The notes beneath the pieces are model-generated. The model searched no databases and was not told the origin of the DNA. It saw only the letters and a program-made list of their open reading frames with translations. Positions 33,705 through 49,488 of a stretch of 64,000 bases of DNA are shown one piece after another (position 1 is the first letter of the stretch; every line of letters begins with the position of its first letter). The translations under genes were made by a program, and so were the position numbers. The stretch is taken from contig NZ_OZ075067.1 of the NCBI RefSeq assembly GCF_964186585.1, positions 1,488,001 through 1,552,000 of the forward strand, written 5' to 3'. This stretch comes from Microbacterium sp. MM2322 (GTDB taxonomy: Bacteria > Actinomycetota > Actinomycetes > Actinomycetales > Microbacteriaceae).

Positions 33705-34945
33705 TGGAGTGCGTCCAGCATGCCCTGCATCGTGGACTGAGCCGCCGCCAGCTCGGACTTGGCGTCCGCGCCTTCGACGACGATGCGGTTGACCGCGTCG
33801 GTGAGCGCGGTACTCATCGCCGGCGTGTAGTACGGGCCGCCGGTCCAGCCGTACTCGGTGGTGAGGTCGACGATGTCCTTCGCGATGCCGTCACCGAGGC
33901 TCTTGGCCTGCTCGCGCGCGGACTTCAGCGGCGGGATGTGGAATCCGTACTTGGTGCTGAACTCGATCTGCCAGTCTGTGTCGTCGATCCACTGCTTCTT
34001 GGCGATCTCCTTCGCCTTCTCGATCTTGCCCGACTTGCCGGCCACCATCTCGTTCCACTGCGAGACGCCCACGATGGGCTGTCCACCCTCGAGCGCCGGA
34101 ACCGCGAACGCGCCGACGTCGTCGCCGAGCGCCTTCTTGAGGGCGGGGATCGCCCACAGACCCTGCCAGCTGATCGCGACATCACCGGCGATGAAGGACG
34201 TCGGGTCCCACCAGTCCGTCGGTGCACCCATCAGGAGCGAGCCCGAGTCGTAGAGGTCGTGCGCCGAGGTCAGGGCATCGGCGAGCTGGGGCGAGTCGAG
34301 CGAGACCTTGGTGTTCTCGTCGTTGATGATGCCGCCGGGAGCTGCCGGCGGCAGATTGGCGGCGAGGATGCCCGCGCCACCGTCGTTGCCGAGGAACAGG
34401 CCCTTGTGGTCGGCGTTCGTGAGCTTCTTGGCCGCCTCGACGAGCTCGTCCCACGTCTGGGGGACCTCGATGCCGGCCTCCTTGAACATGGAGGGCCGGT
34501 AGACGAAGAGCTGGGCATCGGTGATCATCGGGATGCCGTAGTACTTGCCGTCGATCGTGACCGGCTTGAGGGCGATCGGGAGGATGTCGTCTTTCACCGG
34601 CTCGACGATGTCCGTGAGATCTGCGTACTGCCCCTGTCGGGCTGCCTCGACGTTGATCGCGTTGTACTCGAACAGGTCGACACCGCGGCCCGAGGCCAGC
34701 AGTGCATTGACGCGCTGGGCATAGTCGCCCTCGACCCACTGCAGGTCGATCTTCGGGTCCTTCTGCTCATCGGCCCAACGGTTGACCGCATCCTGGACAC
34801 CGGCTTCGCCGTACTGGTGGTAGAACTGCGTGATCGGGCCGTCTGCACCCCCGCCCGCGCCGCTCGAGCATCCGGAGATCAACAGCGCCGATGCGCTGAG
34901 GAGTGCTGCTGTGACTGCGAGCTTGCGTCGCTTGGGTGATGTCAT
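33701..34945 (-). CDS. ABC transporter extracellular sugar-binding lipoprotein
   Basis: 414 aa from ATG 34945. Lipoprotein signal peptide: KRRKLAVTAALLSASALLISGCSS with lipobox Cys26. The mature protein has the family 1 solute-binding pattern: ITQFYHQYGEAGVQDAVNRWADEQ, GVDLFEYNAINVEAARQGQYADLTDIV, VTIDGKYYGIPMITDAQLFVYRPSMFKEAGI. First gene of the ABC-ROK-GH27 operon. The ligand is probably an arabino- or galacto-oligosaccharide by context. AGAGAGG upstream of ATG 34945 supports the start. Confidence 0.93.
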   Translation of the reverse strand: MTSPKRRKLAVTAALLSASALLISGCSSGAGGGADGPITQFYHQYGEAGVQDAVNRWADEQKDPKIDLQWVEGDYAQRVNALLASGRGVDLFEYNAINVEAARQGQYADLTDIVEPVKDDILPIALKPVTIDGKYYGIPMITDAQLFVYRPSMFKEAGIEVPQTWDELVEAAKKLTNADHKGLFLGNDGGAGILAANLPPAAPGGIINDENTKVSLDSPQLADALTSAHDLYDSGSLLMGAPTDWWDPTSFIAGDVAISWQGLWAIPALKKALGDDVGAFAVPALEGGQPIVGVSQWNEMVAGKSGKIEKAKEIAKKQWIDDTDWQIEFSTKYGFHIPPLKSAREQAKSLGDGIAKDIVDLTTEYGWTGGPYYTPAMSTALTDAVNRIVVEGADAKSELAAAQSTMQGMLDALQ

Positions 34946-35021
34946 CCTTCTCGCCTCTCTGCGGGATGGTGACGGCGATACGGGTGTCTGATCGGTCCGC
35001 CGTCGCACCGATCGCCCTTAA

Positions 35022-35034
35022 TCTAACGGTTAAA
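35022..35034. promoter_or_regulatory. Candidate ROK operator in the SBP/ROK divergent region
   Basis: TCTAACGGTTAAA contains TAAC-G-GTTA (35024-35032), symmetric around a central G, in a short AT-rich patch between the binding-protein gene and the divergent ROK gene. It is 77 nt before ATG 34945 (minus) and 100 nt before GTG 35135 (plus). Likely target of one or both ROK proteins, but unproven. Confidence 0.4.
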
Positions 35035-35134
35035 AGAAGGAGTGGTCTACCCCCGATATCAAACCGTGTTCTGTCTGGCAGGATTTCAGGCATGCGATCG
35101 CGCGTGACGAGGCGGACGCAGGGGAGAGGGCACT

Positions 35135-36364
35135 GTGGTCGGAAAGAGGTCGTCGCGCGACATCCGGAGCGAGTCGCGTCTGGACGTTCTTCATGGCCTG
35201 CTGTCCGCCGGAACGTCGACGCGCAACCAGCTGGCGCAGACCACCGGATTGAGCGTCGCGACCGTCGCCACGATCGTGCAAGAACTCCGAGGCGAGGGCC
35301 TCGTGGTGGATGCCGGCAGCTCGACTCTCGGCGCCGGGCGGCCGACGACGATGCTCCGCGTGAACGGGGAGCGCGGGCGGATCCTCGGCATCGATGTCGC
35401 CGAGACCTACGTCCGGGCGATCGTCTTCGACGCGAGCCTCGAAGAGGTCGGTTCGGTCGAGGTTCCCATGGACGAATCGCTGCCGTCGGCGAGCAGTGTG
35501 ACCGAGAGCATCGTGCGCGCTGTCGAGACCGCACTGCGCGAGACGGCGATCGACCGCGAGCGAGTCCTGGGCGCCGGCATCGCACTTCCCGGCCTGATCA
35601 GCGCCGAAGAATCAGCGGATGCCGTCGCCCCCCGCTGGGCAGCGCGCAACGTCGAGGTCCTTCGTCAACTGCGTCAGCGCATCGGACTGCCCCTGGTGGT
35701 CGAGAACCCGCTCAAGGCGATCGCGACGGCCGAGCTGTGGTTCGGCCGCGGGCGCACCGCATCGTCGATGGTGATCGCGAACCTCGGGACAGGCGTCGGC
35801 GCGGGCATCGTGCTGGAGGGCAAGATCCTCCGCGGCGCGACGCACAGCGCAGGGGAGTGGGGGCATGCCGTCCTCGTGCTCGACGGCCGTGCGTGCCGGT
35901 GTGGCCGCCAGGGATGCGTCGAGGCCTACGTCGGAGCCCCCGGCATCCAGTTGACCCTGCGGCAACTCGCACCGGACCACGAACTGGCCGATGCTCCGCA
36001 GCGCGAGTTCATCGAAGGTCTCGCCCGTGCGCACCGGCGAACAGGGGGAGACGTCGTCGCCGACGAAGTCCTCACGCGCACCGCACACTATCTGGGGGCC
36101 GCGCTGGGCGACCTTGCGTCGATCATCGATCCCGAAGTGCTGATGCTGACGGGCTGGACGGCGTGGGCGCTCGGCGACGATCTCGTGGAGCCGACGAAGC
36201 GGGAGCTGCAGCGGCGCGCTCCCATCGGTGCCACGACGCCTATCGACCTGGGGGTGTCGACTGTGCGGGGCAGTTCGGTCGCGATCGGTATGGCAACGCT
36301 CGCGTTCGAGCGGTTCCTCGGCGACGTCGGGCTCTCGACGACGCGCCTGCCGCTCGCGCTCTGA
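35135..36364 (+). CDS. ROK family transcriptional regulator (second copy)
   Basis: 409 aa from GTG 35135, preceded by GGGGAG. The winged helix is LLSAGTSTRNQLAQTTGLSVATVATIVQELRGEGL; the ROK domain has RILGIDVAETYVRAIVFD, MVIANLGTGVGAGIVLEG and zinc cysteines CRCGRQGCVEAYVG. Divergent from the ABC operon and a likely regulator of it. Its last 13 residues (DVGLSTTRLPLAL) and stop codon lie in a 48-bp sequence repeated at 44.8 kb, so this 3' end is one junction of the island. Confidence 0.93.
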   Translation: MVGKRSSRDIRSESRLDVLHGLLSAGTSTRNQLAQTTGLSVATVATIVQELRGEGLVVDAGSSTLGAGRPTTMLRVNGERGRILGIDVAETYVRAIVFDASLEEVGSVEVPMDESLPSASSVTESIVRAVETALRETAIDRERVLGAGIALPGLISAEESADAVAPRWAARNVEVLRQLRQRIGLPLVVENPLKAIATAELWFGRGRTASSMVIANLGTGVGAGIVLEGKILRGATHSAGEWGHAVLVLDGRACRCGRQGCVEAYVGAPGIQLTLRQLAPDHELADAPQREFIEGLARAHRRTGGDVVADEVLTRTAHYLGAALGDLASIIDPEVLMLTGWTAWALGDDLVEPTKRELQRRAPIGATTPIDLGVSTVRGSSVAIGMATLAFERFLGDVGLSTTRLPLAL

Positions 36365-36368
36365 GGGC
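36321..36368 (+). repeat. 48-bp direct repeat, copy 1 (left island boundary)
   Basis: Spans the last 13 codons and the TGA of the second ROK gene plus four bases. It differs from copy 2 (44777-44824) only at the eleventh base (G here, A there), which is synonymous (Gly) in the ROK frame. Sequence outside the two copies is unrelated. Typical of an att-site duplication. Confidence 0.85.
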
Positions 36369-36429
36369 CGCCTCGAACGAGAGGTCGCCCAGCACCTCCG
36401 CTCGGCTGGGCCCGAAGACAGGGGAATAC

Positions 36430-37557
36430 TCATCGCACCACGTGGAAGAGCGCTGCGACCCCGAGACCGCCACCGACGGATGCCGCGGCCACCCCGTAAG
36501 TACTTGACGGCGCTCCGCCCCGGACGAGACGGCTGAACAGGCGAACAACGGCGACGGCCCCGCTCGCGCCCCACGGATGACCGTAGGCAAGAGCTCCGCC
36601 GCCGGCGCACACACGTGAATCGTCTTCGCCGATGTGCAGCAGGTCAAGAACTGCCAGGCTCTGCACCGCGAAGGCCTCGACGATCTCGAAAGCATCGACA
36701 TCCTTCGTTTCCAGCCCTCTGGCTGACAACACCTCCTGTACCGCAGCCGCGGCGCCGACACCCGGGATGGCGGGGTCGCAACCGACTATGGCGGTAGCGC
36801 GCACTGCCAGCCCTGGGCCCTGTCCTGGGGGAACGAGGAGAACTGTTGCCGCACCGTCGCTGATGCGGGCGGTGTTGCCCGCGGTGACCGTTCCGCCTGG
36901 GAACACCGGCGGTAGGCGCTCACGCACTGTGTCGGCCACTCCGATGGCATCGTCCTCCACGGACCCGAGGACCGAGACGATCTCACTGTCGAAGCCGCCG
37001 GAGGCGCGGAGTGCTCGCGCACGCGCGTGACTTCGGGCGGCGTGAGCATCTTGACGACGACGTGAGATGCCGCGGTGGATCGCGAGGTCCTCCGCCGCCT
37101 GGACCATGTCGGGATCCGCGAAACCCCTGGGCGCGAACGGCGCCCGCGCGTAGGGTCTGCCGTCAGTGCTGCGGGTAGGGGCCGTGGACGCGCTCTCGAC
37201 GCCACCGGCGATGCGCGCGCGTTCATCGCCAGCTCGGATAGCGGCGGCCGCATCCGCGATCGCCGCCAGGCCGCTCCCGCACTGACGATCCACCGTCCCC
37301 CCGGGGACACTGAATCCGAGGCCTGCGCCGAGGGCGGCGATGCGGCCGAGGTTGCCCCCTGGGCCCATGCAGTTGCCGAGGAGGACATCCGCCATCTCGA
37401 TCTCCGCTGTTGCGACGCGTCGCGCATCGCGCAGTGTCTGCCGTACGACCGGAGCAGCAAGTTCTCCGGCGGTGGCTCCTGCCAGTGCGCGCCCTCGGGT
37501 CCCGATGTGCGAGCGGCGGGCGGCGATGATGACGGGGTCACGGTCGATTCGGGTCAA
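36430..37557 (-). CDS. Thiolase-family protein with altered active site (YhfS-like)
   Basis: 375 aa from TTG 37557, which has GGGGAGG suitably placed upstream inside the ligase gene; longer starts overlap that gene too far. Thiolase fold: nucleophile Cys93 in DRQCGSGLAAI, GGVESAS, and His327 in YGHPWGASGA. Two usual catalytic positions differ: the NEAF motif reads VEAF (Val294 for Asn) and the C-terminal CxGGGxG motif reads ASVGGGLG (Ser360 for Cys). It may therefore not be a normal acetyl-CoA acetyltransferase. It overlaps the ligase by 20 nt, and the ligase-thiolase order matches yhfT-yhfS of Bacillus. Confidence 0.82.
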   Translation of the reverse strand: MTRIDRDPVIIAARRSHIGTRGRALAGATAGELAAPVVRQTLRDARRVATAEIEMADVLLGNCMGPGGNLGRIAALGAGLGFSVPGGTVDRQCGSGLAAIADAAAAIRAGDERARIAGGVESASTAPTRSTDGRPYARAPFAPRGFADPDMVQAAEDLAIHRGISRRRQDAHAARSHARARALRASGGFDSEIVSVLGSVEDDAIGVADTVRERLPPVFPGGTVTAGNTARISDGAATVLLVPPGQGPGLAVRATAIVGCDPAIPGVGAAAAVQEVLSARGLETKDVDAFEIVEAFAVQSLAVLDLLHIGEDDSRVCAGGGALAYGHPWGASGAVAVVRLFSRLVRGGAPSSTYGVAAASVGGGLGVAALFHVVR

Positions 37558-38650
37558 AGCGGGGCACCTCCCCGGCGAGCATTCGGCGTTCCGCTTCAGC
37601 CCGCGCGATCTTGCCGGAGGCGGTGCGCGGCAACGGGCCGGCAAACCAGCGGCGGGGGCGGTGGGATGGTGCAAGGTGGCGCGTCAGGTCGTGTAGGTCG
37701 GGCCGGTCTGGTCCGGCGAGCTCGACGTAGGCCGACAGGAGTGCTCCGAGAGACGGGTGAGGAATTCCGCACACGAACGCGTCGCGCACACCGGGCGCTG
37801 CTCGAAGTGTGGTTTCGACATCTTCGGGTATCACGGTGGCAGACGCAGTCAGGATCGCGCCGTCGCGGCGTCCGCGAATCTGAAGCGTCCCGTCCGAGAT
37901 GCGAGCCCTGTCTCCCACCGTCGCCCAATCGTCTCGTAGCCGCAGCGGGCCCGGTTCGCCCAGGTACCCGATAGCGATGTACGGAGAACTCACCCACAGC
38001 TCCTCGTCTCGGACGTCCAGCCTCACCTCGGGAAATGCGTGAAGACCGGAGCCTTCGTCGGTGGCGACAAAGGAAAGCTCCGCCGCACCGTAGTACTCGA
38101 TGACGCGCACGCCGGCAGCTTCCGCGCGAGACCTCAGGGCGAAATCCAGCGATGACCCGCCGATGAGCGCGACCCGCAGATTCGCTGGCAAGCCGGCATC
38201 CAAAACTGCTCGCAGCGCGTGCGGTGTTCCGTGCATACACGTCGCTCGCTCTGCCATCGGGGAGCCGATCGCTGCGAGACCTAAGAGGGGTCGGGGGCCG
38301 TCTTCGAGGGCATGAGCAAGCGAGAAGAGGGTCAACGACGAGGAGGGAGGGCCGGGAAGGAGGATGTGATCGTCGTGCCCGGCTTTCAACATCTCGGAAA
38401 CCGCAGCGAACGAATCGGCCCAAGAGCTCGCCGTTCGAATGACGACGCGAGGGTTCCCGCTGGATCCTGAGGTGGTTGTGGCCCACGCGACGTCCGCGGG
38501 GAGCTCCGAGGAAAGGAACGCGTCACCCGCAACGCCGTCGGGAAGCCAGTCCCAGCGGGGATCGGTGACAAGCGGTACCTGTCCGGCCGCGCGCACGGCG
38601 CGCAGCTGTTCGAGAATCTTCGGGCTGTCGGCGCGTATCGGCGTGATCAC
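37538..38650 (-). CDS. Short AMP-forming acyl-CoA ligase (YhfT-like)
   Basis: 370 aa from GTG 38650. ANL-superfamily motifs: P-loop TTSGSSGNPRVV at 59-70, YYGAAELSF at 186-194, VGDRARISDG at 245-254 and the C-terminal catalytic Lys347 in PRTASGKIAR. The P-loop lies unusually near the N-terminus, as in short MenE-type enzymes, and its usual Lys is Arg. It likely activates a carboxylic acid as an acyl-CoA for the coupled thiolase. Two adjacent inverted repeats, one like a BioQ box, lie upstream. In Bacillus the equivalent pair sits in the biotin (BirA) regulon. Confidence 0.85.
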   Translation of the reverse strand: MITPIRADSPKILEQLRAVRAAGQVPLVTDPRWDWLPDGVAGDAFLSSELPADVAWATTTSGSSGNPRVVIRTASSWADSFAAVSEMLKAGHDDHILLPGPPSSSLTLFSLAHALEDGPRPLLGLAAIGSPMAERATCMHGTPHALRAVLDAGLPANLRVALIGGSSLDFALRSRAEAAGVRVIEYYGAAELSFVATDEGSGLHAFPEVRLDVRDEELWVSSPYIAIGYLGEPGPLRLRDDWATVGDRARISDGTLQIRGRRDGAILTASATVIPEDVETTLRAAPGVRDAFVCGIPHPSLGALLSAYVELAGPDRPDLHDLTRHLAPSHRPRRWFAGPLPRTASGKIARAEAERRMLAGEVPRFDPNRP

Positions 38651-38703
38651 TGGGGCGTGAGGCTTTCTGACTCAGACGCGGGATCGCTTCTCCGCGTTTC
38701 GCT

Positions 38704-38716
38704 GGTGAACATCACC
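38704..38716. promoter_or_regulatory. Inverted repeat GGTGA-N3-TCACC upstream of the ligase gene
   Basis: GGTGAACATCACC has two perfect 5-bp arms around ACA. It lies between the ligase start codon and the TGAAC-N3-GTTCA element, only 4 nt from the latter. Could be a second site for the same or another regulator. Confidence 0.35.
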
Positions 38717-38720
38717 CTCC

Positions 38721-38733
38721 TGAACACCGTTCA
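38721..38733. promoter_or_regulatory. BioQ-like operator TGAAC-N3-GTTCA
   Basis: TGAACACCGTTCA has perfect 5-bp inverted arms. From memory the corynebacterial and mycobacterial BioQ (TetR family) box is TGAAC-N3-GTTAC; this differs at the last two bases. It lies about 70 nt upstream of the ligase start. Together with the YhfT/YhfS-like gene pair it suggests biotin-responsive control. No bioQ gene is in the window. Confidence 0.5.
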
Positions 38734-38835
38734 AGAGGACGACGTTCACTGTAGCGTTCTCGTGGCCGACTGTGGGAACGCGGACCGACTGCTCGCACCA
38801 CGATGTGTCCGCCTCCGACTGCTAGCCTGTGGCCC

Positions 38836-39453
38836 ATGGAACGTTCCCGGCCGTCATGGAATGGACTTGTCGTTTTCGACCTGGGTGAGGTTCTTGCCAC
38901 CCCGATAGACCTATATGGGCGGCTCGCCGTTGTTCTCTCCGTCGACGAGGAGCTCGTGCGGAACGCCTACTGGGTGGACCGCGATGCTCATGATCGCGGC
39001 TCGTCCGTCGAGGACTACTGGGCCGGCGTGGCAACTCGAGTGGGAGCCCAGCCGCGAGCGGAGATCAGCAAGCAGCTGGCCGAGATCGACGCATCGGCCT
39101 GGGCGACGATTCGAGCCGATGCAGAGTCCGTTCTCGCTGACGTGAAGGCTGCAGGATCGCGGATTGCGATCCTGTCCAACGCCCCTCATCCGATGGCGGC
39201 AGCTGCGCGGGCGAGTGGCTGGGGACAGTACATCGACCATTGGTTCTTCTCGTGCGAGCTTGAGGTTGCCAAGCCGGACCTTCGCGTCTACGAAATCGTC
39301 ACTGAGCGCGTCGGCGTTGCGCCACGCAGCATTCTCTTCTTCGATGATCGGCAAGTGAACGTCGAGGGTGCGTCGGCGTCGGGATGGGACGCGCGTCTGT
39401 GGACGTCCGGGGAACGCACGCGCGAGGTCCTGCTCGATCTCGGTATCTTGTGA
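38836..39453 (+). CDS. HAD-superfamily phosphatase, YihX-like
   Basis: 205 aa. HAD motifs: I with nucleophile Asp15 in VVFDLGEVL (the second Asp is replaced by Gly, as in YihX-type sugar-phosphate phosphatases), II Ser114 in ILSNAP, III Lys146 in VAKPD, IV Asp170-Asp171 in FFDDRQVN. Cap domain of about 80 residues after motif I. Likely dephosphorylates a small phosphorylated metabolite. TAGCCT (38823-38828) is 7 nt before ATG 38836, so the mRNA is probably leaderless, and a GGAACGTTCC operator covers the first codons. Followed 4 nt later by the LacI gene. Confidence 0.9.
   Translation: MERSRPSWNGLVVFDLGEVLATPIDLYGRLAVVLSVDEELVRNAYWVDRDAHDRGSSVEDYWAGVATRVGAQPRAEISKQLAEIDASAWATIRADAESVLADVKAAGSRIAILSNAPHPMAAAARASGWGQYIDHWFFSCELEVAKPDLRVYEIVTERVGVAPRSILFFDDRQVNVEGASASGWDARLWTSGERTREVLLDLGIL
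38838..38847. promoter_or_regulatory. LacI-type operator GGAACGTTCC at the HAD/LacI transcription start
   Basis: A perfect 10-bp palindrome with a central CG, beginning on the third base of the HAD start codon. With a leaderless start it would overlap +3 to +12, a strong repression position. Its core is identical to the one in front of the permease operon at 44579. Same general form as the CebR-type palindrome GGGAGCGCTCCC of other actinobacterial LacI proteins. Confidence 0.65.
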
Positions 39454-39457
39454 CGTA

Positions 39458-40519
39458 ATGGACAATGATCAGGTGCCCTCGAGTCATGCCCGCCGAGGCG
39501 GAAGGGCTAAGGCGCCCACGATCAAAGACATCGCCGTCGAAGCCGGTGTATCCAAATCGGCTGTATCACGAGCCCTTCTCGGTCAAGGGGAGGTGAGCGA
39601 TGCAACCCGTGAGCGAGTCCAGGCCGCCGCTACGCGTCTGGGTTACGTCGCCAACGCGATGGCAGCCGGCCTCCGTGCTCGGACGAAAACGGTGGGAGTC
39701 GTGCTGCGCGACATCAACCGCCCGTACTACAGTCACCTCCTCTCTGCGCTGCAGGCGCAGGCGGAAGTCCGCGGATATCGCCTCGTGGCCATGACCAGCG
39801 CGGGAGAACTCGACGTAGCCAACGCCATCAGCGCAGTCAGATCGCTTGTGTCTTTGCAAGTTGATGGTGTCATCCTGGCGTCAGCTCAGCTGGACTCCGA
39901 ATTGATCAAACCATTCGCCGAGCGTGTGCCGATGGTCGTGGCGGGGCGCATGGAGTTGGGATCCGTCCCGAGCGTATTCGGCGATGAGACGCACGGCGGT
40001 CGACGACTGGCTGAGTTCCTGCTCGGCGCGGGCCACCGACACATTGCAGTGGGGCTGGTCGACAGGGCGTACTCGATGTCACAGCATCTGAGCGGACAAG
40101 CCATGATCGATCAGATACGCGACGGCGGCGGCACCCCCGTCGTCTTCGAGATCGAAAACGACTGGCGGATGGTTGATGTTGTCGAGCCGATCTTGGGGGA
40201 CAGGAGCATTACAGCGGTCATGTGTCCCACAGACGCATCCATGTTGAACGTGCTCGGATCTCTACAGGATCGCAACGTGCGGTGCCCGGAGCACTTGTCG
40301 ATAACCGGCTACGGCGGGATCGGCGAGCTTGCGAGCGCCCACCTCGGATTCACGACGTATCGGCAGCCGGTCGATCACATCGGGGTGAATGCGATCAATC
40401 TCCTCGTCGATGCGATTGAGAGCGATCAGGATCTCGAGAAGACTCCTGAACACAGGACGGTGCACGGAGAATTCGTCACGGGGCGAACTGTGCGACTGCT
40501 TGCGGACGAAGTGATTTAA
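39458..40519 (+). CDS. LacI family transcriptional regulator (island)
   Basis: 353 aa from ATG 39458. HTH near residues 20-45: PTIKDIAVEAGVSKSAVSRALLGQGEVS, hinge RLGYVANAMAAGLRA. Core domain: VGVVLRDINRPYYSHLLSAL, VIFCP-type segment AVMCPTDASMLNVLGSL, and LSITGYGGIGELASAHLGFTTYRQPVDHIG. Second gene after HAD and so probably autoregulated through the GGAACGTTCC element; also the best candidate repressor of the convergent Ugp-like operon. A strong hairpin terminator follows. Confidence 0.93.
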   Translation: MDNDQVPSSHARRGGRAKAPTIKDIAVEAGVSKSAVSRALLGQGEVSDATRERVQAAATRLGYVANAMAAGLRARTKTVGVVLRDINRPYYSHLLSALQAQAEVRGYRLVAMTSAGELDVANAISAVRSLVSLQVDGVILASAQLDSELIKPFAERVPMVVAGRMELGSVPSVFGDETHGGRRLAEFLLGAGHRHIAVGLVDRAYSMSQHLSGQAMIDQIRDGGGTPVVFEIENDWRMVDVVEPILGDRSITAVMCPTDASMLNVLGSLQDRNVRCPEHLSITGYGGIGELASAHLGFTTYRQPVDHIGVNAINLLVDAIESDQDLEKTPEHRTVHGEFVTGRTVRLLADEVI

Positions 40520-40533
40520 GGTCTCAAAGACTC

Positions 40534-40572
40534 ATGGCCAGGATCTGACCGCAACGGGCAGATCCTGGCCAT
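40534..40572. terminator. Bidirectional terminator between LacI and the 2H phosphoesterase gene
   Basis: A perfect 14-bp stem, 40534-40547 with 40559-40572, and an 11-nt loop, lying between the two convergent island operons. Confidence 0.8.
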
Positions 40573-40583
40573 AAGCTTGCGTG

Positions 40584-41222
40584 CTACTCGGCGCCCGGGT
40601 CGGGGAGGGTCCAGGTCTTGAGATGCTGGTACCGGTGCGTGCGCCACCACTGCCCTTCCCAGTCGTCACTGTCTGTGCCGTACAGCACGACCGTTCGACC
40701 GGAGAACATCTCGGGGGCGGGGGTAGGGAGCCCTGCCAAGAGCTCGGCAAGGAATTCGCCGACCTCGTCATACAGCGTTCTGTCAACGGACAGGTCATGC
40801 GACGCTAGCGAGAGGTGGCCCCAGAACTCGGCCTCGGCCACGGGGGTGACGAGGAAGTCCTCGGTAGGCAGAGCGATGGGGAGAATCGCTGCTTTGATTG
40901 CTGTCGCGGTGTCAATGAACGGCTGATTCGGTTCTCCGTTCCCGTTCTCGTGAACGTTGAAGACATATCCGTCCCCGGTCGTTTCGAGACCCTTGTTGTG
41001 AACCGTGAACGAGGTCTTGCCGATGAGCGCGTGCTCGACGCGATCGACGATGTCGGCGATGCTCGCATCCGTCTTCAAAGAACCGACGAGCGTCGCGTGC
41101 GGGGGGAACGCTGCGGCGGAGATGAGTCCGTACTGTTGTTTCAGCGTCATGTTGGTCTGCGCTTGTACCCAGCAGGTGACGGGGTCGGGGCGCAGATAGA
41201 TCCCATATCGAGTCGGGGTCAC
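40584..41222 (-). CDS. 2H phosphoesterase superfamily protein (2'-5' RNA ligase-like)
   Basis: 212 aa from GTG 41222, with AAAGGAC upstream. Two H-x-T/S-x motifs define the 2H superfamily: His42-Ala-Thr44-Leu in PPHATLVGSL and His136-Leu-Ser138-Leu in WGHLSLASHD, spaced about 94 residues. Members act as cyclic phosphodiesterases or RNA end-processing enzymes. No signal peptide. Last gene of an operon after two permeases and a UgpB-like lipoprotein, so I infer a role in cleaving an imported phosphodiester rather than in RNA repair. Confidence 0.82.
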   Translation of the reverse strand: MTPTRYGIYLRPDPVTCWVQAQTNMTLKQQYGLISAAAFPPHATLVGSLKTDASIADIVDRVEHALIGKTSFTVHNKGLETTGDGYVFNVHENGNGEPNQPFIDTATAIKAAILPIALPTEDFLVTPVAEAEFWGHLSLASHDLSVDRTLYDEVGEFLAELLAGLPTPAPEMFSGRTVVLYGTDSDDWEGQWWRTHRYQHLKTWTLPDPGAE

Positions 41223-41254
41223 GGGTGCTGTCCTTTCTGTGAAGTCACGGGTCG

Positions 41255-42634
41255 TCAACCGAGCTGAGTCCGGTATTGCTCGATGGCCTTGTCCGCTTCG
41301 GTGCGTGCGTTGGCGAGAGCTTCGTCCAGGGTGACGGATCCGTTGATGGCGGCCTCCATCTGAGCGGAGACCGCAGCTCGGATCGAGGTCATTGCGCCGC
41401 TGAGGCAACCTGCGGTGGCGGTGACACTCGGGGTGTTGTCGATCTGGTCGACGAAAGTCTGAGCGTCGGGGTGGCTGGCAAGGTATTTTCTGCGCGCGGG
41501 CAGGTCGTCCACGCCCTTATTGACCGGGACGTAGCCGGTGGCCGCGCTGAACGACTCTTGGTTTTCCGCCGAAGCGAGGTAGCTGATGAGCTTCCATCCG
41601 GCTACCTTCTCTGCATCGGTTGCAGTCGAGCTCAACCACATCGCTGCGCCGCCGATAACCGGCCCCGCTTCGGTGGGGTCTGCGCCCTCTGACAGTGGAT
41701 ACGGCACGGCCTCGAAGTCGAACGAGGGCGCAGATGTGTCCAGCGCCCCTGCAGCTCCGGAACTGTTGAACATCATGGCGACCTGACCTGCGGCGAACGC
41801 TGTCACGGCAGCGTTGCCGTCGACACCGATGTCGGTACCGGCGCCCGAGGTGTAGACATCAACCAGTGACCGGAGTCCGTCGACCTGGGCAGGCGCATCC
41901 AACGGAAGTGACGTGGCGCCATCGCCGCTGCGGCCATTCTTCGGTGTGCAGTAGGAATTTCCAGATGCAGCGGTGATCTGCTCGAACCACCATCCATCGA
42001 ACGATCCCGCCAGACCGGACACCCCGGTCTTCGCCTTGACCCTCTTGGCGGCTGCCGCCACATCTTGGATCGTCTTCAGATCTGTCTTCGGGTCGATCCC
42101 GGCCTGCGTGAGCAGGTCGGTGTTCACCCACAGCACAGGTGTGGAAATGGCCAGAGGAACGGCGAACATCTCGCCATCGGCGCCGTAGTAGTTCGCTCCC
42201 ACAGGCCGGATCTGGCTGAGGTCGAGGTCGTCAGGGTTTGCTTTAGCCATCGCCTCGGGGGAAACGCTACGTTGCACGTCGCGAAGGTAGCCCGAGGTGG
42301 TGTCTCCGGAGATCACCACGGTCGGGGTGGAGTCGTCTCGGAGTCCAGCCGTGTATTTCGCCAGCAGGTCGGTGTATGAACCCTGAAAGCTTGAGTTGAC
42401 GTGGATCTTGCCCGCGTTGGCTGCATTGAACGCCGAGATCGATGCGTCGAGCGCCTCGCCGTTCGCGTTGCCGAACCCGTGCCAGAGGGTGATGGTGGTG
42501 ACACCGTCGGCGTCCTCGAGCGCCTCGGGTCCGGGGGCGCCCTTTGAACCGCTGCCCGCCGACGCCTCCGGGCTGCACGCCGCGAGGCTGAGGGCGAGGA
42601 CACCGACGGCGATGCTCGCGATGAGTTTCTTCAT
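41255..42634 (-). CDS. UgpB-like ABC transporter solute-binding lipoprotein
   Basis: 459 aa from ATG 42634 with GGAG upstream. Signal peptide MKKLIASIAVGVLALSLAAC, lipobox Cys20. It aligns by eye along its length with E. coli UgpB: WHGFGNANGE, FQGSYTDLLAKYTAGLR, NYYGADGEMFAVPLAISTP, FAAGQVAMMFNSSGA, GPVIGGAAMWLSS, TGYVPV, and a C-terminal SIRAAV. Residues matching UgpB's glycerol-3-phosphate site appear kept (Tyr87, Ser291/292, Gly328/329, Tyr368, Arg419). Ligand is therefore likely a glycerol phosphate, glycerophosphodiester or similar phosphate ester. Confidence 0.9.
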   Translation of the reverse strand: MKKLIASIAVGVLALSLAACSPEASAGSGSKGAPGPEALEDADGVTTITLWHGFGNANGEALDASISAFNAANAGKIHVNSSFQGSYTDLLAKYTAGLRDDSTPTVVISGDTTSGYLRDVQRSVSPEAMAKANPDDLDLSQIRPVGANYYGADGEMFAVPLAISTPVLWVNTDLLTQAGIDPKTDLKTIQDVAAAAKRVKAKTGVSGLAGSFDGWWFEQITAASGNSYCTPKNGRSGDGATSLPLDAPAQVDGLRSLVDVYTSGAGTDIGVDGNAAVTAFAAGQVAMMFNSSGAAGALDTSAPSFDFEAVPYPLSEGADPTEAGPVIGGAAMWLSSTATDAEKVAGWKLISYLASAENQESFSAATGYVPVNKGVDDLPARRKYLASHPDAQTFVDQIDNTPSVTATAGCLSGAMTSIRAAVSAQMEAAINGSVTLDEALANARTEADKAIEQYRTQLG

Positions 42635-42751
42635 GTTGTCTCCTTCTTCGATGGCACCGTTGGACGATGCGGGTTTCGCGATGCACACTCGACGGCGTCG
42701 CGAGGTCTCAAGGTGAGGGCAGCGCGGCGGGGCGGGGCCCAGAAGCGATCG

Positions 42752-43648
42752 CTACTTGCCCGACCCACTGGCGAGGCCGGTGACGAGCAGTCGCTGGCTG
42801 AAAATGACCAGCAGGACCGTGGGCACGAGGACGAGAGCGGTCCCGGCGAAGATGACGGCGGGACTCGTCACCTCGGAGGTCACCAACTGGGTCAGGCCGA
42901 CTTGCACCGTTCGGTTGTTGGGCGAGTCGGTGATCAGCAGGGGCCAGAAGAATCCGTTCCACGCGGCCAGCGCGCTCCACATCACGGAGGTCGTGACCTG
43001 GTTGCGGGCGGAAGGCATGAGGACAAGGAACAGGGTGCGCAGGTCGCCACAGCCGTCCAAGCGGGCTGCTTCCCACAGCTCGTGGGGGATCGAGGCGAAG
43101 GCTTGTCGCAGGAGGAAGATCGGATATCCAACGGCGAGAAAGGGAATCACAATCCCGAAGATGGTGTCCCGCAGACCCAGTCCTGTCACGAATTCGTAGT
43201 TGGGGATGACGAGACTCTCGCCGGGCACCGCCAGCGTGGCGATGATGAATCCAAAGGCGACAGCTCGCCCGCGCCACCGCGGAAACACAAGCGCGTAGGC
43301 CGCGAGCGACGCAGTAATGAGCTGCGCAAGAGTTTGCAGAACGACGACGACGAGGCTCACCAGATACTGGTTGCCGAGCGGGATTGACCGCAGTGCGGCG
43401 GCGAAATTGTCCACCGTGAATCGGTCGAGTGGGGGCATGAGTCCGTTGCTGATGAGGGTGCCGTTCGGGAAAAAGCCGGTGGCGAAACTCAGGTAGAGCG
43501 GAAAGCCCATGACGACGAAGAGCAGCACGATGACAAGGAAGCGGGGGAGGTCGCGCCAGGTGAGCGAGTGAAAGTTTCCGCGCCTATTCGCACGGCTCTC
43601 CTTTTGCGGCATCCCGAGGACCGCTGTCCCAGTGGTGGGTGCAGACAT
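42752..43648 (-). CDS. ABC transporter permease, UgpE/MalG type
   Basis: 298 aa with six probable helices: FLVIVLLFVVMGFPLYLSFATGF first, then ALVFPRWRGRAVAFGFIIATLAVPGESLVIPNY, and the EAA loop LWEAARLDGCGDLRTLFLVLMPSARNQV. ATG 43648 is preferred to ATG 43657 because GGAAGG lies directly against the latter but is well placed for the former. It begins 1 nt after the stop of the UgpA-type gene. Confidence 0.92.
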   Translation of the reverse strand: MSAPTTGTAVLGMPQKESRANRRGNFHSLTWRDLPRFLVIVLLFVVMGFPLYLSFATGFFPNGTLISNGLMPPLDRFTVDNFAAALRSIPLGNQYLVSLVVVVLQTLAQLITASLAAYALVFPRWRGRAVAFGFIIATLAVPGESLVIPNYEFVTGLGLRDTIFGIVIPFLAVGYPIFLLRQAFASIPHELWEAARLDGCGDLRTLFLVLMPSARNQVTTSVMWSALAAWNGFFWPLLITDSPNNRTVQVGLTQLVTSEVTSPAVIFAGTALVLVPTVLLVIFSQRLLVTGLASGSGK

Positions 43649-43649
43649 G

Positions 43650-44552
43650 TCACGCATCCTTCCGATTTGCGATCTTGAATTGGATGGCTGTCACGGCCGC
43701 GATCAGGAGGACGAGGAACGTCCCGATGACAGACGCGCGGCCGAAGTCAGGGACGCCGCGCCCGAACGCCAGCTGGTAGAGCTGGTACACCAGCGTCGTG
43801 GTGGTACCCGAGGGGCCGCCACGGGTGAGGACATAGACCTGCGTGAAGGTCTGCAGACCCGCGATCGTCTGCGTGACGAAAAGGAAGAACAGGCTGGGGC
43901 GCATCAACGGAATCAGCATGGTCCAGGCCAGCCTCGCGCCAGAGGCGCCGTCCAGTTCCGCTGCCTCGAGGACTTCTTCGGGGATGTTCCGTATGGCCGC
44001 GATCAGGACAAGGAAAGCAAACCCGGACTCGTACCATGCGGTCGTGACGGAGATGGAGAGGATGGCCCATCCCGGCTCCTGCAGCCAAGGAACGGTGTCG
44101 AACCCGAATCGTTGCAGCAGCAGATTTACCGCGCCGGTTGATGGTCCGAAAAGCCCATAGAAGATTGCTGACGCGGATGCGGCTGAGTAGGCGAAGGGGA
44201 GCGAAAAGATCACCTGAAAGAGACCGCGACCTGGAATCCAACGGCGGAGCAGGAGCACGCAGAGCAGGGAGACCCCCACCGCAAGCACCATTGCAACCAC
44301 AGCGATCAGGAGGGACGTCCACAAGGTCCGCTGAAAGGAACCTGTGGCGAAAAAGTCGACCCAGTTGTCCAGTCCCACGAACCGGGACGGGTTGCCGACG
44401 ATGTCGCTGCCGAAAAAGCTCAGTTGCACACCACGAAAGACCGGGCGATAGACGAAAAGAGCCAGAAGGATGGCCGCGGGCAGCAAGAGCCACGGTCCCA
44501 AACCTGCCTTCGAGAGCTTGCCTCGGAGCCGCGGTTTCGCTTCCAACGTCAT
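43650..44552 (-). CDS. ABC transporter permease, UgpA/MalF type
   Basis: 300 aa, six probable helices: LGPWLLLPAAILLALFVYRPVFRGVQLSFFG, RTLWTSLLIAVVAMVLAVGVSLLCVLLL, and the EAA loop LEAAELDGASGARLAWTMLIPLMRPSLFF. First gene of the operon UgpA-UgpE-UgpB-2H phosphoesterase. Its promoter region has a GATAAT -10 and a GGGAACGTTCCC operator. No UgpC-type ATPase is encoded in the island. Confidence 0.92.
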   Translation of the reverse strand: MTLEAKPRLRGKLSKAGLGPWLLLPAAILLALFVYRPVFRGVQLSFFGSDIVGNPSRFVGLDNWVDFFATGSFQRTLWTSLLIAVVAMVLAVGVSLLCVLLLRRWIPGRGLFQVIFSLPFAYSAASASAIFYGLFGPSTGAVNLLLQRFGFDTVPWLQEPGWAILSISVTTAWYESGFAFLVLIAAIRNIPEEVLEAAELDGASGARLAWTMLIPLMRPSLFFLFVTQTIAGLQTFTQVYVLTRGGPSGTTTTLVYQLYQLAFGRGVPDFGRASVIGTFLVLLIAAVTAIQFKIANRKDA

Positions 44553-44578
44553 TGAGTCTCCTTCGCCCGCATCATCAC

Positions 44579-44590
44579 GGGAACGTTCCC
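44579..44590. promoter_or_regulatory. LacI-type operator GGGAACGTTCCC upstream of the Ugp-like operon
   Basis: A perfect 12-bp palindrome 26 nt before ATG 44552 (minus) and just downstream of a GATAAT -10 at 44604-44609. It contains the same core GGAACGTTCC as the HAD/LacI promoter, linking the two island operons to one regulator. Confidence 0.68.
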
Positions 44591-44603
44591 GAGCTGCGGT
44601 AAA

Positions 44604-44636
44604 ATTATCAGAGGCTCAGGTTGACGACAATCAACC
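44604..44636 (-). promoter_or_regulatory. Promoter region of the Ugp-like operon
   Basis: On the minus strand, GATAAT (44604-44609) is a good -10. Immediately upstream is an inverted repeat GGTTGA-N6-TCAACC (44619-44636), in the place of a -35 or activator site. No clear -35 hexamer is seen. The stretch further right to 44776 has a small hairpin (44645-44657) and no convincing gene. Confidence 0.4.
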
Positions 44637-44703
44637 GGGGAGTAGCCCCAAAGGGGCGAACCCTCGAACAGATGCCCTTCATCGGACCGGGGGAGCGAGC
44701 CTG

Positions 44704-44820
44704 ATGGGGCACCATCGCCGCTACCTTGAGGCGTGTAAGGAGGAAGGCTGGGGGAGCAGTTCTCCTTGCGATCAACGCGACGTCGGACTCTCGACGACGC
44801 GCCTGCCGCTCGCGCTCTGA
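44704..44820 (+). pseudogene. 38-codon chimeric ORF ending in the repeated ROK tail
   Basis: ATG 44704 follows GGGGGAG (44689-44695) and encodes MGHHRRYLEACKEEGWG plus a short linker. It then reads in frame into direct-repeat copy 2, ending DVGLSTTRLPLAL exactly as the ROK protein does. I do not recognise the first part. It may be a remnant of a gene disrupted at the junction, or not translated at all. Confidence 0.3.
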
Positions 44821-44824
44821 GGGC
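44777..44824 (+). repeat. 48-bp direct repeat, copy 2 (right island boundary)
   Basis: 47 of 48 bases match copy 1 (36321-36368). The reading frame and TGA of the ROK tail are preserved even though no ROK gene precedes it here. The phosphotransferase gene ends 7 nt beyond it on the other strand. Confidence 0.85.
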
Positions 44825-44830
44825 TCCGGG

Positions 44831-45718
44831 TTACTCCGGCGTCATGCCCTCCGGGTCGAACAGCGTGCCATGAGCCACGCGTCGCCGGAAGTTGTGGAGT
44901 GCATGGTCGCGGAGGCCGTCGAGTCCCGCGAGGACCGCTGAAGCCGCGACCTGCAGCGGCAGCGTGGCGCGAAGGAGCATCGCGCGTTGCAGCACCGCGC
45001 TGGAGCAGAGCTGAGACGCTGCGCGCGCACCGTGGAAGCCGATGAGGGGAGCGATATCGGTCGCCGGGTCCCCGAGGCACGCATGGTCCAGGTCGATGAG
45101 ACCGCTCAGATCGTCACCAGCCCAGAGCATGTTGTGCGGACCGAAATCACCATGGCAGAAGGTGACTTCCTCCGTCTCGCTCGACAGCACGTCCTCGATG
45201 GCGGCGGATGCGGCTGCCCCCGCGTCGGCTGAAAGCCGGGGGACGAGCTCCTCGGCAACGATCTCTGTCCACAGCATCCCGCCGCACCACGATCGCGGCG
45301 GCGGCAGATCAGTAAGACACGACACAGGAATCTGCCGGAAGAGCGTGAGCGTCTCGGCGTACACCTTCATCCGGAACTGCGACCGATCGGCGACGTCTAG
45401 GGAAGGTCGTCCCGGTACCTGGCTCATCAACACGGCACCCGCCGCGGTCGCTTCCTCCGATGTGGCGAGCGGCTCGGGTATTCGGAGGGGAAAGTCGCTC
45501 GTCGACAGGATCCGGAGGATTCGATGCTCTCTCGCGGCGCGCCGGGAGCCGTCGCGTCCGATCGTGACGCGAGCGACAGGGCCGTCGGGCAACACGGCGA
45601 CCTGGTGAAATGCGCCATTCGTCGCACGGGCGGCAGACCAGTCCCACTCGGGCCAGAAGCGAGCGGCGACGACGCGCACGTCAGGTGGTGCGACATCCTG
45701 ATCCACGGCCGATCCCAT
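44831..45718 (-). CDS. APH-family phosphotransferase
   Basis: 295 aa from ATG 45718. Aminoglycoside/choline-kinase-like fold: ATP-site strand GPVARVTIGRDG, AGAVLMSQVPGRPSL, then the catalytic loop CHGDFGPHNMLW (Asp in HGD-F-x-x-x-N) and metal site LIDLDHACLGDPATDIA. Substrate unknown; sequence alone does not show antibiotic resistance. TACGGT (45726-45731) lies 7 nt before ATG 45718, a leaderless layout that favours it over GTG 45739. An AT-rich palindrome lies about 75 nt upstream. Confidence 0.85.
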   Translation of the reverse strand: MGSAVDQDVAPPDVRVVAARFWPEWDWSAARATNGAFHQVAVLPDGPVARVTIGRDGSRRAAREHRILRILSTSDFPLRIPEPLATSEEATAAGAVLMSQVPGRPSLDVADRSQFRMKVYAETLTLFRQIPVSCLTDLPPPRSWCGGMLWTEIVAEELVPRLSADAGAAASAAIEDVLSSETEEVTFCHGDFGPHNMLWAGDDLSGLIDLDHACLGDPATDIAPLIGFHGARAASQLCSSAVLQRAMLLRATLPLQVAASAVLAGLDGLRDHALHNFRRRVAHGTLFDPEGMTPE

Positions 45719-45792
45719 GGCCCACACCGTACCTGCCACCTGACGAGACGTGGCGTCCCATGGAGGAGCGGCCTCGCTCTCTTTGATTTGAC

Positions 45793-45806
45793 ATAATGTG
45801 CATTAT
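45793..45806. promoter_or_regulatory. AT-rich palindrome ATAATGTGCATTAT
   Basis: A perfect inverted repeat with 6-bp arms around TG, striking in this GC-rich sequence. It sits between the stop of the membrane protein gene (45824) and the phosphotransferase start (45718), and it overlaps a possible minus-strand -10 (GATAAT, 45804-45809). Form is like MarR-type operators; no MarR gene is adjacent. Confidence 0.4.
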
Positions 45807-45823
45807 CGGCTGTTTGATCCTTC

Positions 45824-46846
45824 TCAGAGGCATCCCGTGGTGATCACCCCGTGGATCGTTCCGTCGATCGTTGAACGATCGGCGATGCGCAGGGTGACCG
45901 TCGTGATCGGATCGAAGCGGATGTCCGTCTGGATCGCACGATCGACCTCGTACCCGGCGGCATCCCACGTCGCGAGGATCTTCTCCAGTGACGCCGCGTT
46001 GTCCTCGGTTGCGAACGCGAACGTCAGCGCCGATTGCGCGGTGCCACGATCGCATGTCGTCCGTGTCGGCGCGGACGACGCCACGGCGCGGCCGTCCGTG
46101 CCGACGGCTCCGGGAACCGCAGCGAGTGTCGCTGCGTACATGCGCTCCAGTTCCGCCTCGGCGCGTTCCAGACTGACGGGTGCCGGCGCAGTCGGCGTCG
46201 GCGACGGACGATCCGCCTGATACGTCGGACGCTTCAGCCCGCACTCCGGCACGTGCCCCGTCAGCTCAGGCACGGTCACCGTTTCGACGACACCACTGCC
46301 CGCGGAGGCAGCCGACACCCGCAGAGTTCCGTCCTCTTCCGAGGCGCCGTACGCGCCCTCGTGGAACGGCATCCCGCCATCCGCGTTCGAGATCGTCGCC
46401 ACGCCGGTCGCAACGAGACCGTCCATGCGGTACAGGGAGCTCGAGCTCGACAGCCAGTGGTTCTCCTCGCGGACGAGGTAACCGGTGTCGCATCCGTCAT
46501 CGTCGATGAGCGGCGACACGATGGTGGTCGGGAACGTCGCCAGGAACACACCTGCGCCCGCGACGAGCACCGCTCCGGTTGCCGCGACCCTCGCCACGAT
46601 CACTCCAACGCGGCCCGCGACCCTCGTCGCTCGCAGACTGAAGACGAGGACAGTGAGGTCGATCACGCCCACCAGGATGAGCACAGCCACGATCTGCGGC
46701 GAATCCAGCGTCCCTACGAGAACCGTCGTGCCCTCGCCTTCCTCGCTCGTCGACACCGCTACGGCGATCATCGCTGCGGCGATGAGAACTGCCACCACCG
46801 CTGTGAGGACTCGGATGCCGACGGCCACGCGCCGTGCGTCAGCCAC
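45824..46846 (-). CDS. Uncharacterised membrane protein with extracellular Cys-containing domain
   Basis: 340 aa from GTG 46846, which overlaps the XRE gene's stop by 8 nt. Three predicted membrane helices in the first ~130 residues (IRVLTAVVAVLIAAAMIAVAV; IVAVLILVGVIDLTVLVFSL; VAATGAVLVAGAGVFLATF). A ~210-residue soluble region follows, with four Cys (GCDTG, PECGL, TTCDRG, TTGCL), a Pro/Thr linker and alpha/beta-like C-terminal sequence. I recognise no family. Its position suggests a role linked to the DUF2975/XRE pair. Confidence 0.65.
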   Translation of the reverse strand: MADARRVAVGIRVLTAVVAVLIAAAMIAVAVSTSEEGEGTTVLVGTLDSPQIVAVLILVGVIDLTVLVFSLRATRVAGRVGVIVARVAATGAVLVAGAGVFLATFPTTIVSPLIDDDGCDTGYLVREENHWLSSSSSLYRMDGLVATGVATISNADGGMPFHEGAYGASEEDGTLRVSAASAGSGVVETVTVPELTGHVPECGLKRPTYQADRPSPTPTAPAPVSLERAEAELERMYAATLAAVPGAVGTDGRAVASSAPTRTTCDRGTAQSALTFAFATEDNAASLEKILATWDAAGYEVDRAIQTDIRFDPITTVTLRIADRSTIDGTIHGVITTGCL

Positions 46847-47060
46847 CCGTATCCTCGGCCGGCTCCCAGCGCAGCAAATCACCCGGTTGGCAGTCGAGCG
46901 CCTCGCAGAGCGCGTCGAGCGTCGTGAACCGGACGGCTTTCGCCCGGCCGTTCTTCAGCACCGCGAGGTTCGCCGGTGTGATGCCGATGCGGGCGGCCAG
47001 GTCACCCACGGCCATCTTCCGCCGCGCGAGCATGACATCGATGTCCACGACGATGGGCAT
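46839..47060 (-). CDS. XRE-family helix-turn-helix regulator (YozG-like)
   Basis: 73 aa, nearly all HTH: MLARRKMAVGDLAARIGITPANLAVLKNGRAKAVRFTTLDALCEALDCQPGDLL. This short form typically accompanies a DUF2975 membrane protein, which is what lies directly upstream (start and stop overlap by one base). It probably represses its own operon, and the inverted repeats upstream of DUF2975 are the likely target. Confidence 0.9.
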   Translation of the reverse strand: MPIVVDIDVMLARRKMAVGDLAARIGITPANLAVLKNGRAKAVRFTTLDALCEALDCQPGDLLRWEPAEDTGG

Positions 47061-47524
47061 CAGACGACCTCGTCGAGCTCGGAACGCATCTCGATCGCCT
47101 TCCGCAGCAGTGACCGCATCACCACGACCACCAAGGCCACTCCCCCGGTCGCCAACGCCGCAGCGTAGATGAGACCGACGACACCGGGGGCGATCCCCCC
47201 GGGCACGAGAAGCGTGGCCAAGACCGCCGTCAGCAGCGCTGCGACGCCGATGGCCGCGATTACGACATCGACGAAGCGGAAGGCGGCGGGAGAGAAGACC
47301 GCATCCACTGCAGCCATGGATACGAGCCGCCAAATGCAGATCGCAACGACCTGCAGGCAGACCAGCCACAGCGCGAGGACAGTCACAGCACTCACCCGCC
47401 AGCCGAAGGGGGTGCTCGCCAGATCGCGCCAGATTGCTGGCAGGATGACTGCCTGCACAGCGGCCGAGCCGATCAAGGATAGGCCGAGAACGCTGCGCAG
47501 GGCCACGATCGTCGTGCGACTCAT
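47060..47524 (-). CDS. DUF2975 family membrane protein
   Basis: 154 aa from ATG 47524. Four predicted helices: TIVALRSVLGLSLIGSAAVQAVILPAIW, VSAVTVLALWLVCLQVVAICIW, VDVVIAAIGVAALLTAVLATLLV and GVVGLIYAAALATGGVALVVVVMRSLL, then a polar end. Function unknown. First gene of a three-gene operon with the XRE regulator and a membrane protein. The long upstream in-frame extension lies antisense to the AEC gene and is rejected. Confidence 0.82.
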   Translation of the reverse strand: MSRTTIVALRSVLGLSLIGSAAVQAVILPAIWRDLASTPFGWRVSAVTVLALWLVCLQVVAICIWRLVSMAAVDAVFSPAAFRFVDVVIAAIGVAALLTAVLATLLVPGGIAPGVVGLIYAAALATGGVALVVVVMRSLLRKAIEMRSELDEVV

Positions 47525-47544
47525 TGTTGCCTTTCGATACTGAT

Positions 47545-47561
47545 CTATCGAAAAACGATAG
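47545..47561. promoter_or_regulatory. Candidate operator of the DUF2975-XRE operon
   Basis: CTATCG-AAAAA-CGATAG is a perfect 6-bp-arm inverted repeat 20 nt upstream of ATG 47524, and a further TTTCGATA (47532-47539) lies between it and the gene. Repeated CGATA units at this position fit autoregulation by the small XRE protein. Confidence 0.5.
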
Positions 47562-47609
47562 CCACTCCCCTGGTCGGATGCAAGCGACACGTCGCCGTAG
47601 GCTCGGAGC

Positions 47610-49455: not shown

Positions 49456-49488
49456 ATGTTCCTGGACCTGAGCCAGCACCTCTCGTGA
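49456..49488 (+). CDS. 10-codon upstream ORF coupled to the glycerophosphodiesterase gene
   Basis: ATG 49456 follows AAGGAG at ideal spacing and encodes MFLDLSQHLS. Its TGA (49486-49488) overlaps the downstream GTG (GTGA). The downstream gene has no strong ribosome site of its own, so its translation probably depends on this short ORF. No known leader family recognised. Confidence 0.45.
   Translation: MFLDLSQHLS

Follow-up and report, generated by a model that had tools for sequence, protein, structure and literature searches.

A UgpB-like ABC importer linked to a 2H phosphoesterase: a candidate phosphodiester utilisation system in Microbacterium and other Actinobacteria

The 64,000-nucleotide stretch of Microbacterium sp. 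MM2322 analysed here (contig NZ_OZ075067.1, positions 1,488,001 to 1,552,000; hereafter the window) contains a six-gene locus that encodes a UgpB-like ATP-binding cassette (ABC) importer, a 2H phosphoesterase, a HAD phosphatase and a LacI-family regulator. The locus probably represents a Gram-positive, ABC-fed and LacI-controlled route for the utilisation of an exogenous phosphodiester, in which the 2H enzyme would replace UgpQ, the glycerophosphodiester phosphodiesterase (GDPD) of Ugp systems. We rate it a little short of an even chance that the ligand is a sugar-type diester. The gene linkage, the clade and site residues of the substrate-binding protein (SBP), the candidate operator and the alternation of GDPD with 2H come from sequence comparison; import, the order of cleavage, the use of a shared ATPase, LacI binding and the class of the ligand are what we infer.

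The gene set and its recurrence

The six genes form two convergent operons, HAD-LacI on the plus strand facing PermA-PermB-SBP-2H on the minus strand:

38803..39453, plus strand: HAD-superfamily phosphatase (PF00702), distant kin of YihX, with motifs FDLGEV, LSNA, AKP and FFDD; over the Pfam cut-off
39458..40519, plus strand: LacI-family regulator (PF00356 and PF13377), ATG start; over the Pfam cut-off
40531..40575, no strand: inverted repeat with 21-nt arms 90% complementary, between the convergent operons; likely a shared terminator
40584..41222, minus strand: 2H phosphoesterase (PF13563), GTG start; Pfam 32.5 bits against a cut-off of 27
41255..42634, minus strand: UgpB-like lipoprotein SBP, lipobox LAAC, phosphate site conserved and Trp clamp altered; over the Pfam cut-off
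42752..43657, minus strand: PermB, UgpE-like ABC permease; over the Pfam cut-off
43650..44552, minus strand: PermA, UgpA-like ABC permease, first gene of the transporter operon; over the Pfam cut-off
44578..44591, no strand: CGGGAACGTTCCCG palindrome, candidate LacI operator, the sole exact copy in the 3.09-Mb genome

An earlier note on this DNA had placed a LacI regulator and a HAD phosphatase opposite a convergent operon with two permeases. All these genes are there and pass their Pfam cut-offs, the permeases as one UgpA-like and one UgpE-like protein. Pfam found no ATPase and no GDPD (UgpQ) gene among the operon genes.

In the mechanism that we propose, the lipoprotein would bind a phosphodiester from outside the cell, one half of which is most likely a sugar or polyol, through its UgpB-type phosphate site, in a pocket that the Trp169 clamp does not close. 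PermA and PermB would import the diester with power from an ATPase of the MalK/MsiK type whose gene lies elsewhere in the genome. The cytoplasmic 2H enzyme would then hydrolyse it, as UgpQ does in Ugp-type systems. The phosphate of the resulting monoester would be removed by the HAD phosphatase or, in many relatives, by an enzyme of the inositol monophosphatase (IMPase) family. LacI would repress the transporter-2H operon at CGGGAACGTTCCCG until substrate or product appears.

A profile of 43 2H proteins (A1), searched against genome_contigs, gave 58 loci; by their record titles 57 are from Actinobacteria and the remaining one is from an Acidobacteria metagenome-assembled genome (MAG). Fifty-seven loci were scored, the window included. 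Left out were L006, which is the same locus as L055, and L063 and L064, which hold a 2H fragment only (L064 and L042 are two unjoined contigs of one genome). Within 7 kb of the 2H gene, LacI is found in 49 loci, PermA in 46, PermB in 45, the SBP in 43, HAD in 26, an IMPase-family gene in 17 and an MgtC gene in 9, with score limits of 150 bits for HAD and 250 bits for IMPase; one IMPase and two MgtC genes were confirmed by Pfam and the remainder called by cluster profiles. PermA, PermB and SBP all lie within this distance in 42 of the 57 loci, and 38 of these 42 also have a HAD or IMPase-family phosphatase. The two phosphatases were never found together over the limits (0 of 57), four IMPase loci (L017, L020, L024, L035) having a weak HAD match of 36-60 bits. 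At least one partner lies within 1.5 kb in 54 of the 57 loci, against none of 30 ordinary PF13563 loci, a control formed by the best-scoring such loci of the order, which samples the core of the family. The three subfamily loci without so close a partner are L042 and L060, both with 2H at a contig end, and L061. The earlier note had set conserved co-occurrence of 2H with UgpB-like genes as one of its tests, and the neighbourhood is indeed not unique to this genome.

The linkage persists through reshuffled gene orders, so that an inherited neighbourhood alone is unlikely to explain it. The order is HAD-LacI-PermA-PermB-SBP-2H in many Streptomyces and LacI-2H-IMPase(-)-PermA-PermB-SBP in Agreia, M. 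testaceum and, with an extra LacI, Curtobacterium; the convergent order of the window is a further arrangement. Such recurrence, in 42 of 57 loci and in different orders, makes it very improbable that the locus is an ordinary CUT1 importer of a neutral sugar to which a 2H enzyme of the RNA or tRNA repair type is linked by chance or for co-expression.

Few genomes have the system, and its distribution is patchy. Among 58 compared genomes, a set that comprises the window's own and 34 others of its genus, the 2H gene occurs in one other than the window's, and in the class-level set it occurs in 2 of 394 genomes, again with the window's included. The same two genomes hold a close SBP (100% and 50% identity), while 15 others have remote UgpB-like SBPs only, at 31-35% identity, and no 2H match.

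These 15 sister transporters provide the best evidence that a 2H enzyme can do the job of UgpQ. In five of them, which form one clade in the tree, a GDPD gene directly follows the SBP gene, and in the three full-width stretches among them (L129, L130, L131) the order is SBP-GDPD-IMPase-PermA-PermB, Pfam identifying the GDPD and a DeoR regulator in L129 and the IMPase in L131. GDPD and IMPase thus stand where the window type has 2H and HAD or IMPase. A phmmer search of the 2H loci with three queries (E<=1e-4; positions 33001-48000 of the window covered) gave no GDPD match. Homologous transporters are therefore paired with GDPD and a phosphatase, with 2H and a phosphatase, or with neither, and the suggestion of the earlier note that 2H takes the UgpQ role is supported at the level of sequence comparison. 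As a separate observation, a pectate-lyase-like gene with a right-handed beta-helix and an apparent signal sequence lies at the end of the GDPD-type operon (L129 4237-5793, L131 14285-15946; Pfam).

The other ten sisters have the order PermA-PermB-SBP with neither GDPD nor 2H in the stretches examined (18-19 kb for five of them, about 4.3 kb for the other five), which indicates that a hydrolase partner is not obligatory. Against the proposed role, 10 of 12 genomes searched have no SBP of the UgpB-side clade though 2H is present: five Clavibacter, P. cyclohexanicum, two MAGs, and the genomes of L055 and L058, where a different SBP is in use. The 12 were chosen because their 2H locus lacked a linked-clade SBP or was truncated, L056 standing outside this genome-wide search. 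The 2H enzyme may thus serve without an importer, or persist after the loss of one. The Clavibacter 2H proteins sit with the Microbacteriaceae IMPase-type loci in the 2H tree (23 rows; Shimodaira-Hasegawa-like approximate likelihood ratio test, SH-aLRT, 97), a grouping which suggests importer loss. The Clavibacter loci themselves (L033, L036, L041, L043, L050) retain LacI and 2H without the transporter.

Of 47 loci, 44 have the motif GGGAACGTTCCC with at most one mismatch (31 of them without any) within about 330 bp upstream of the transporter operon, compared to 3.9% of 9400 random same-size windows from the same loci. It should be mentioned that L064 is counted among these 47 operons, and among the 44 SBPs discussed below, though it is outside the 57 loci. 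In the window, the exact CGGGAACGTTCCCG lies 25 bp before the PermA start codon and one further site with one mismatch exists in the genome; about 0.04 exact copies would be expected at an assumed 68% G+C. No site of this type is present ahead of the HAD-LacI operon in the window. LacI would bind CGGGAACGTTCCCG, judging from these sequence patterns. A purely RNA-end role is made less likely by the 2H gene lying in the operon, and under the operator, of a regulated importer.

Two further observations concern the loci themselves. The MgtC-family gene (PF02308) near the 2H system belongs to L008, L018, L026, L027, L049, L053, L055, L057 and L059. Two 2H copies within one locus are seen in L011, L013, L019, L039, L054, L055, L056 and L058.

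Binding protein, hydrolase and phosphatases

Residues 45-452 of the window SBP align with residues 5-411 of E. coli UgpB (4aq4) at E 1.8e-40, in agreement with the full-length match that had been claimed for it. The N-terminus is a lipoprotein signal, the lipobox Cys being invariant in 19 aligned SBPs (set A2). All 19 match only the UgpB model NF008211 of NCBIfam at E<=1e-10 (best E 3.5e-57); the window SBP reaches 166.6 bits on this equivalog, below its cut-off of 411, and the best NCBIfam models for SBP, PermA and PermB are all Ugp models scoring below cut-off. In the tree, 41 of the 44 linked SBPs form one clade beside UgpB.

The site residues were compared with those named for the phosphate site and the clamp of UgpB in PMC12718374. 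The window SBP keeps all phosphate-coordinating residues (two Tyr and two Ser) and Arg374, and so has the set that marks UgpB as a phosphate-binding CUT1 SBP, with Arg and Gly for the hydroxyls. However, Glu66 is replaced by Asp, and Trp169, the first Trp of the glycerol clamp, by Phe, while Trp172 is kept. The earlier view that the glycerol-phosphate site is retained is thus right for the phosphate residues and Arg374 and wrong for the clamp. The pattern is general: of the 44 linked SBPs, 40 retain the full set of phosphate-coordinating residues, and none has Trp at position 169, which varies among M, F, L, I, Q and D. By its residues the window SBP is not an intact glycerol-3-phosphate (G3P) site, and G3P itself is an unlikely ligand because part of the Trp clamp that would hold glycerol phosphate is missing. 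Loss of Trp169 with the phosphate residues kept is as expected for a larger phosphodiester. The retention of the latter in 40 of 44 SBPs also argues against the neutral-sugar importer, considering that these residues are not conserved in glucose-binding proteins according to the same text (PMC12718374).

The larger diester could also be a glycerophosphodiester of the glycerophosphocholine (GPC), glycerophosphoethanolamine (GPE) or glycerophosphoinositol (GPI) type, imported as by M. tuberculosis UgpB, with 2H replacing GDPD on the same substrate. Asp66 and the lost Trp169 agree with the GPC-binding type, for which Asp102 is named, the Trp pair having appeared with G1P/G3P binders according to PMC12718374, and five sister transporters do use GDPD. 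On the other hand, the linked SBPs form a clade separate from the GDPD-linked ones, position 169 varies within that clade, no glycerol or choline gene was recognised among the neighbouring gene clusters (mostly by eye), and GDPD genes were available, two of them in this genome. We regard this alternative as unlikely.

The importer is likely powered by a shared ATPase encoded elsewhere, which we take to be of the kind known as MsiK, because the genome has a single match to OB_MalK, the MalK-type ATPase domain, for 13 SBP_bac_8 matches; the search covered ATPases that carry this domain. One of the 13 own-genome SBP matches, L071, has no SBP-profile match and was left unaligned.

The 2H protein was described earlier as cytoplasmic with two HxT/Sx motifs, and these are present as H42-x-T44 and H136-x-S138. 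In the alignment of 43 proteins, H42, T44 and H136 do not vary and S138 hardly does. Both motifs, a bilobal 2H fold and a Pfam score over the cut-off place it in the 2H phosphoesterase superfamily. Its AlphaFold2 model has a predicted local distance difference test (pLDDT) score of 95.7, and the nearest folds are plant cyclic phosphodiesterase (1jh6, the closest), YjcG and LigT. Structural kinship is drawn from this fold comparison because the A1 profile gave no significant sequence match in the PDB (best E 0.034). Ordinary PF13563 proteins (LigT, the 2'-5' RNA ligase family) have the fold and the two HxT/S motifs in common with the window protein, but the 30 ordinary loci differ from the subfamily in gene context. 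At E<=0.01 neither NCBIfam nor PHROGs nor PADLOC gives a match to the window protein, and viral_contigs holds no relative of it; a phage, defence or RNA-repair role was set aside, PHROGs, PADLOC and viral_contigs all being without a match. Several such proteins are named 'heme utilization protein' in public records, apparently a propagated misannotation.

The fold also brings to mind the scavenging of RNA fragments, in which the SBP would import 2',3'-cyclic nucleotides or dinucleotides, 2H would open the cyclic phosphates like the plant enzyme, and the phosphatase would act as a nucleotidase; we consider this distinctly unlikely.

The HAD motifs listed above are intact in the window protein. 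Its assignment to the YihX form holds at the family level only: it scores 43.4 bits on the NCBIfam glucose-1-phosphatase model PRK09456 (cut-off 295), and among structures a haloacid dehalogenase (2no4, E 8e-10) is ahead of YihX (8pno and 8pne, E 6e-9 to 7e-9). The alternative phosphatase of relatives is of the IMPase family and nearest to SuhB. Characterised kin of both families act on sugar or polyol phosphates (YihX, an alpha-D-glucose-1-phosphate phosphatase, and the inositol monophosphatases), which fits a monoester product without fixing its identity.

The SuhB kinship, together with the cyclic phosphodiesterase 1jh6 as nearest 2H fold, would suit a cyclic inositol or sugar phosphate route, for example from myo-inositol 1,2-cyclic phosphate via inositol-1-phosphate to inositol. 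However, the IMPase family is broad, the HisN model scoring above the IMPase model on this phosphatase and both below cut-off; HAD replaces IMPase in 26 of the 57 loci; and no inositol catabolic gene was recognised among the neighbouring gene clusters (mostly by eye). Such a route appears quite improbable.

The insert and its borders

The system lies within an insert next to a ROK gene (35135-36364), which itself is outside it. Direct repeats of the ROK 3' end flank a block of 8.4 kb:

36321..36368, plus strand: 48-bp direct repeat, left copy, at the 3' end of the ROK gene
44777..44824, plus strand: 48-bp direct repeat, right copy (47 of 48), candidate right border of the insert

Two close relatives, G538 and G015 (ROK gene 95 and 93% identical), are without the system. 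In G538 the ROK 3' end is followed by about 350 bp and then the homolog of window position 46861, in G015 by about 70 bp and the homolog of 45827. Compared to these, the insert is about 9.5-10.5 kb and holds the system plus thiolase, acyl-CoA-ligase-like and APH-family genes; no recombinase is present among the insert genes run through Pfam. At E<=1e-40, the APH-family gene (PF01636; 44831-45727, minus strand) occurs in only 2 of 59 genomes of the genus, a count that includes the window's. It was too rare to mark the empty site, for which the ROK gene served instead. One of the two GDPD genes of this genome lies at 49485-50261 on the plus strand, 4.9 kb from PermA; it was rejected as a partner, being a background gene conserved in two relatives without the insert.

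Related systems and implications

The window SBP and permeases match Ugp models best and keep the phosphate residues of the Ugp importers (E. coli, Phaeobacter, M. tuberculosis UgpB). However, Ugp systems have UgpQ (GDPD) and UgpC (ATPase) in the operon and the Trp169 clamp, and the window operon is without all three; a known Ugp operon was rejected for want of the two genes.

Cleavage of an imported sugar phosphodiester by a 2H enzyme, XanP, was demonstrated in Xanthomonas in December 2025 (PMC12807533). The XanT-XanP (xanthosan) module and the window system both have a 2H phosphodiesterase with two HxT/S motifs beside a dedicated transporter gene, but XanT-XanP has a TonB-dependent outer-membrane transporter and ROK where the window has an ABC importer and LacI. 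For XanT-XanP the substrate is known, and the main text nowhere uses the word phosphatase. Xanthomonas is not named among the 120 listed of 416 matches to the A1 profile.

The agrocinopine acc genes of Agrobacterium offer a second comparison. AccF is of GDPD type and AccA is an oligopeptide-type SBP, so the acc gene families differ from those of the window. By architecture, the only level compared, both systems have an ABC importer, a phosphodiesterase (AccF), a phosphatase (AccG) and a repressor (AccR), those of acc being for a sugar phosphodiester; the available text of PMC4526662 names no 2H enzyme. The earlier note had called the gene combination possibly undescribed. This stands for the ABC-fed set, of which no description was found among the matches listed from the open-licence PMC literature, publication elsewhere being possible; it does not extend to a 2H enzyme acting on an imported sugar phosphodiester, already reported for XanT-XanP with its TonB transporter (PMC12807533).

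Many of the named actinobacterial hosts are plant-associated, as judged from strain and species names alone and with no background comparison. Tentatively, and at clearly less than even confidence, we suggest that these bacteria have, on the Gram-positive side, an equivalent of the xanthosan and agrocinopine economies, in which a LacI-controlled ABC importer, a 2H enzyme and an exchangeable phosphatase would serve an undiscovered plant- or microbe-made sugar phosphodiester, and the swap of GDPD for 2H between sister operons would reflect a shift in substrate, away from glycerol-type diesters and towards sugar-type or cyclic ones. The usual annotation of a 2H protein is that of an RNA ligase or of an enzyme acting on RNA ends. 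If the proposal is right, this whole subfamily would instead be one of catabolic phosphodiesterases, and its operon partners would lead directly to a nutrient which we have not found named in these bacteria. It would also extend the xanthosan finding from one Gram-negative genus to Actinobacteria, and would provide a case in which homologous transport operons have exchanged one phosphodiesterase fold for another.

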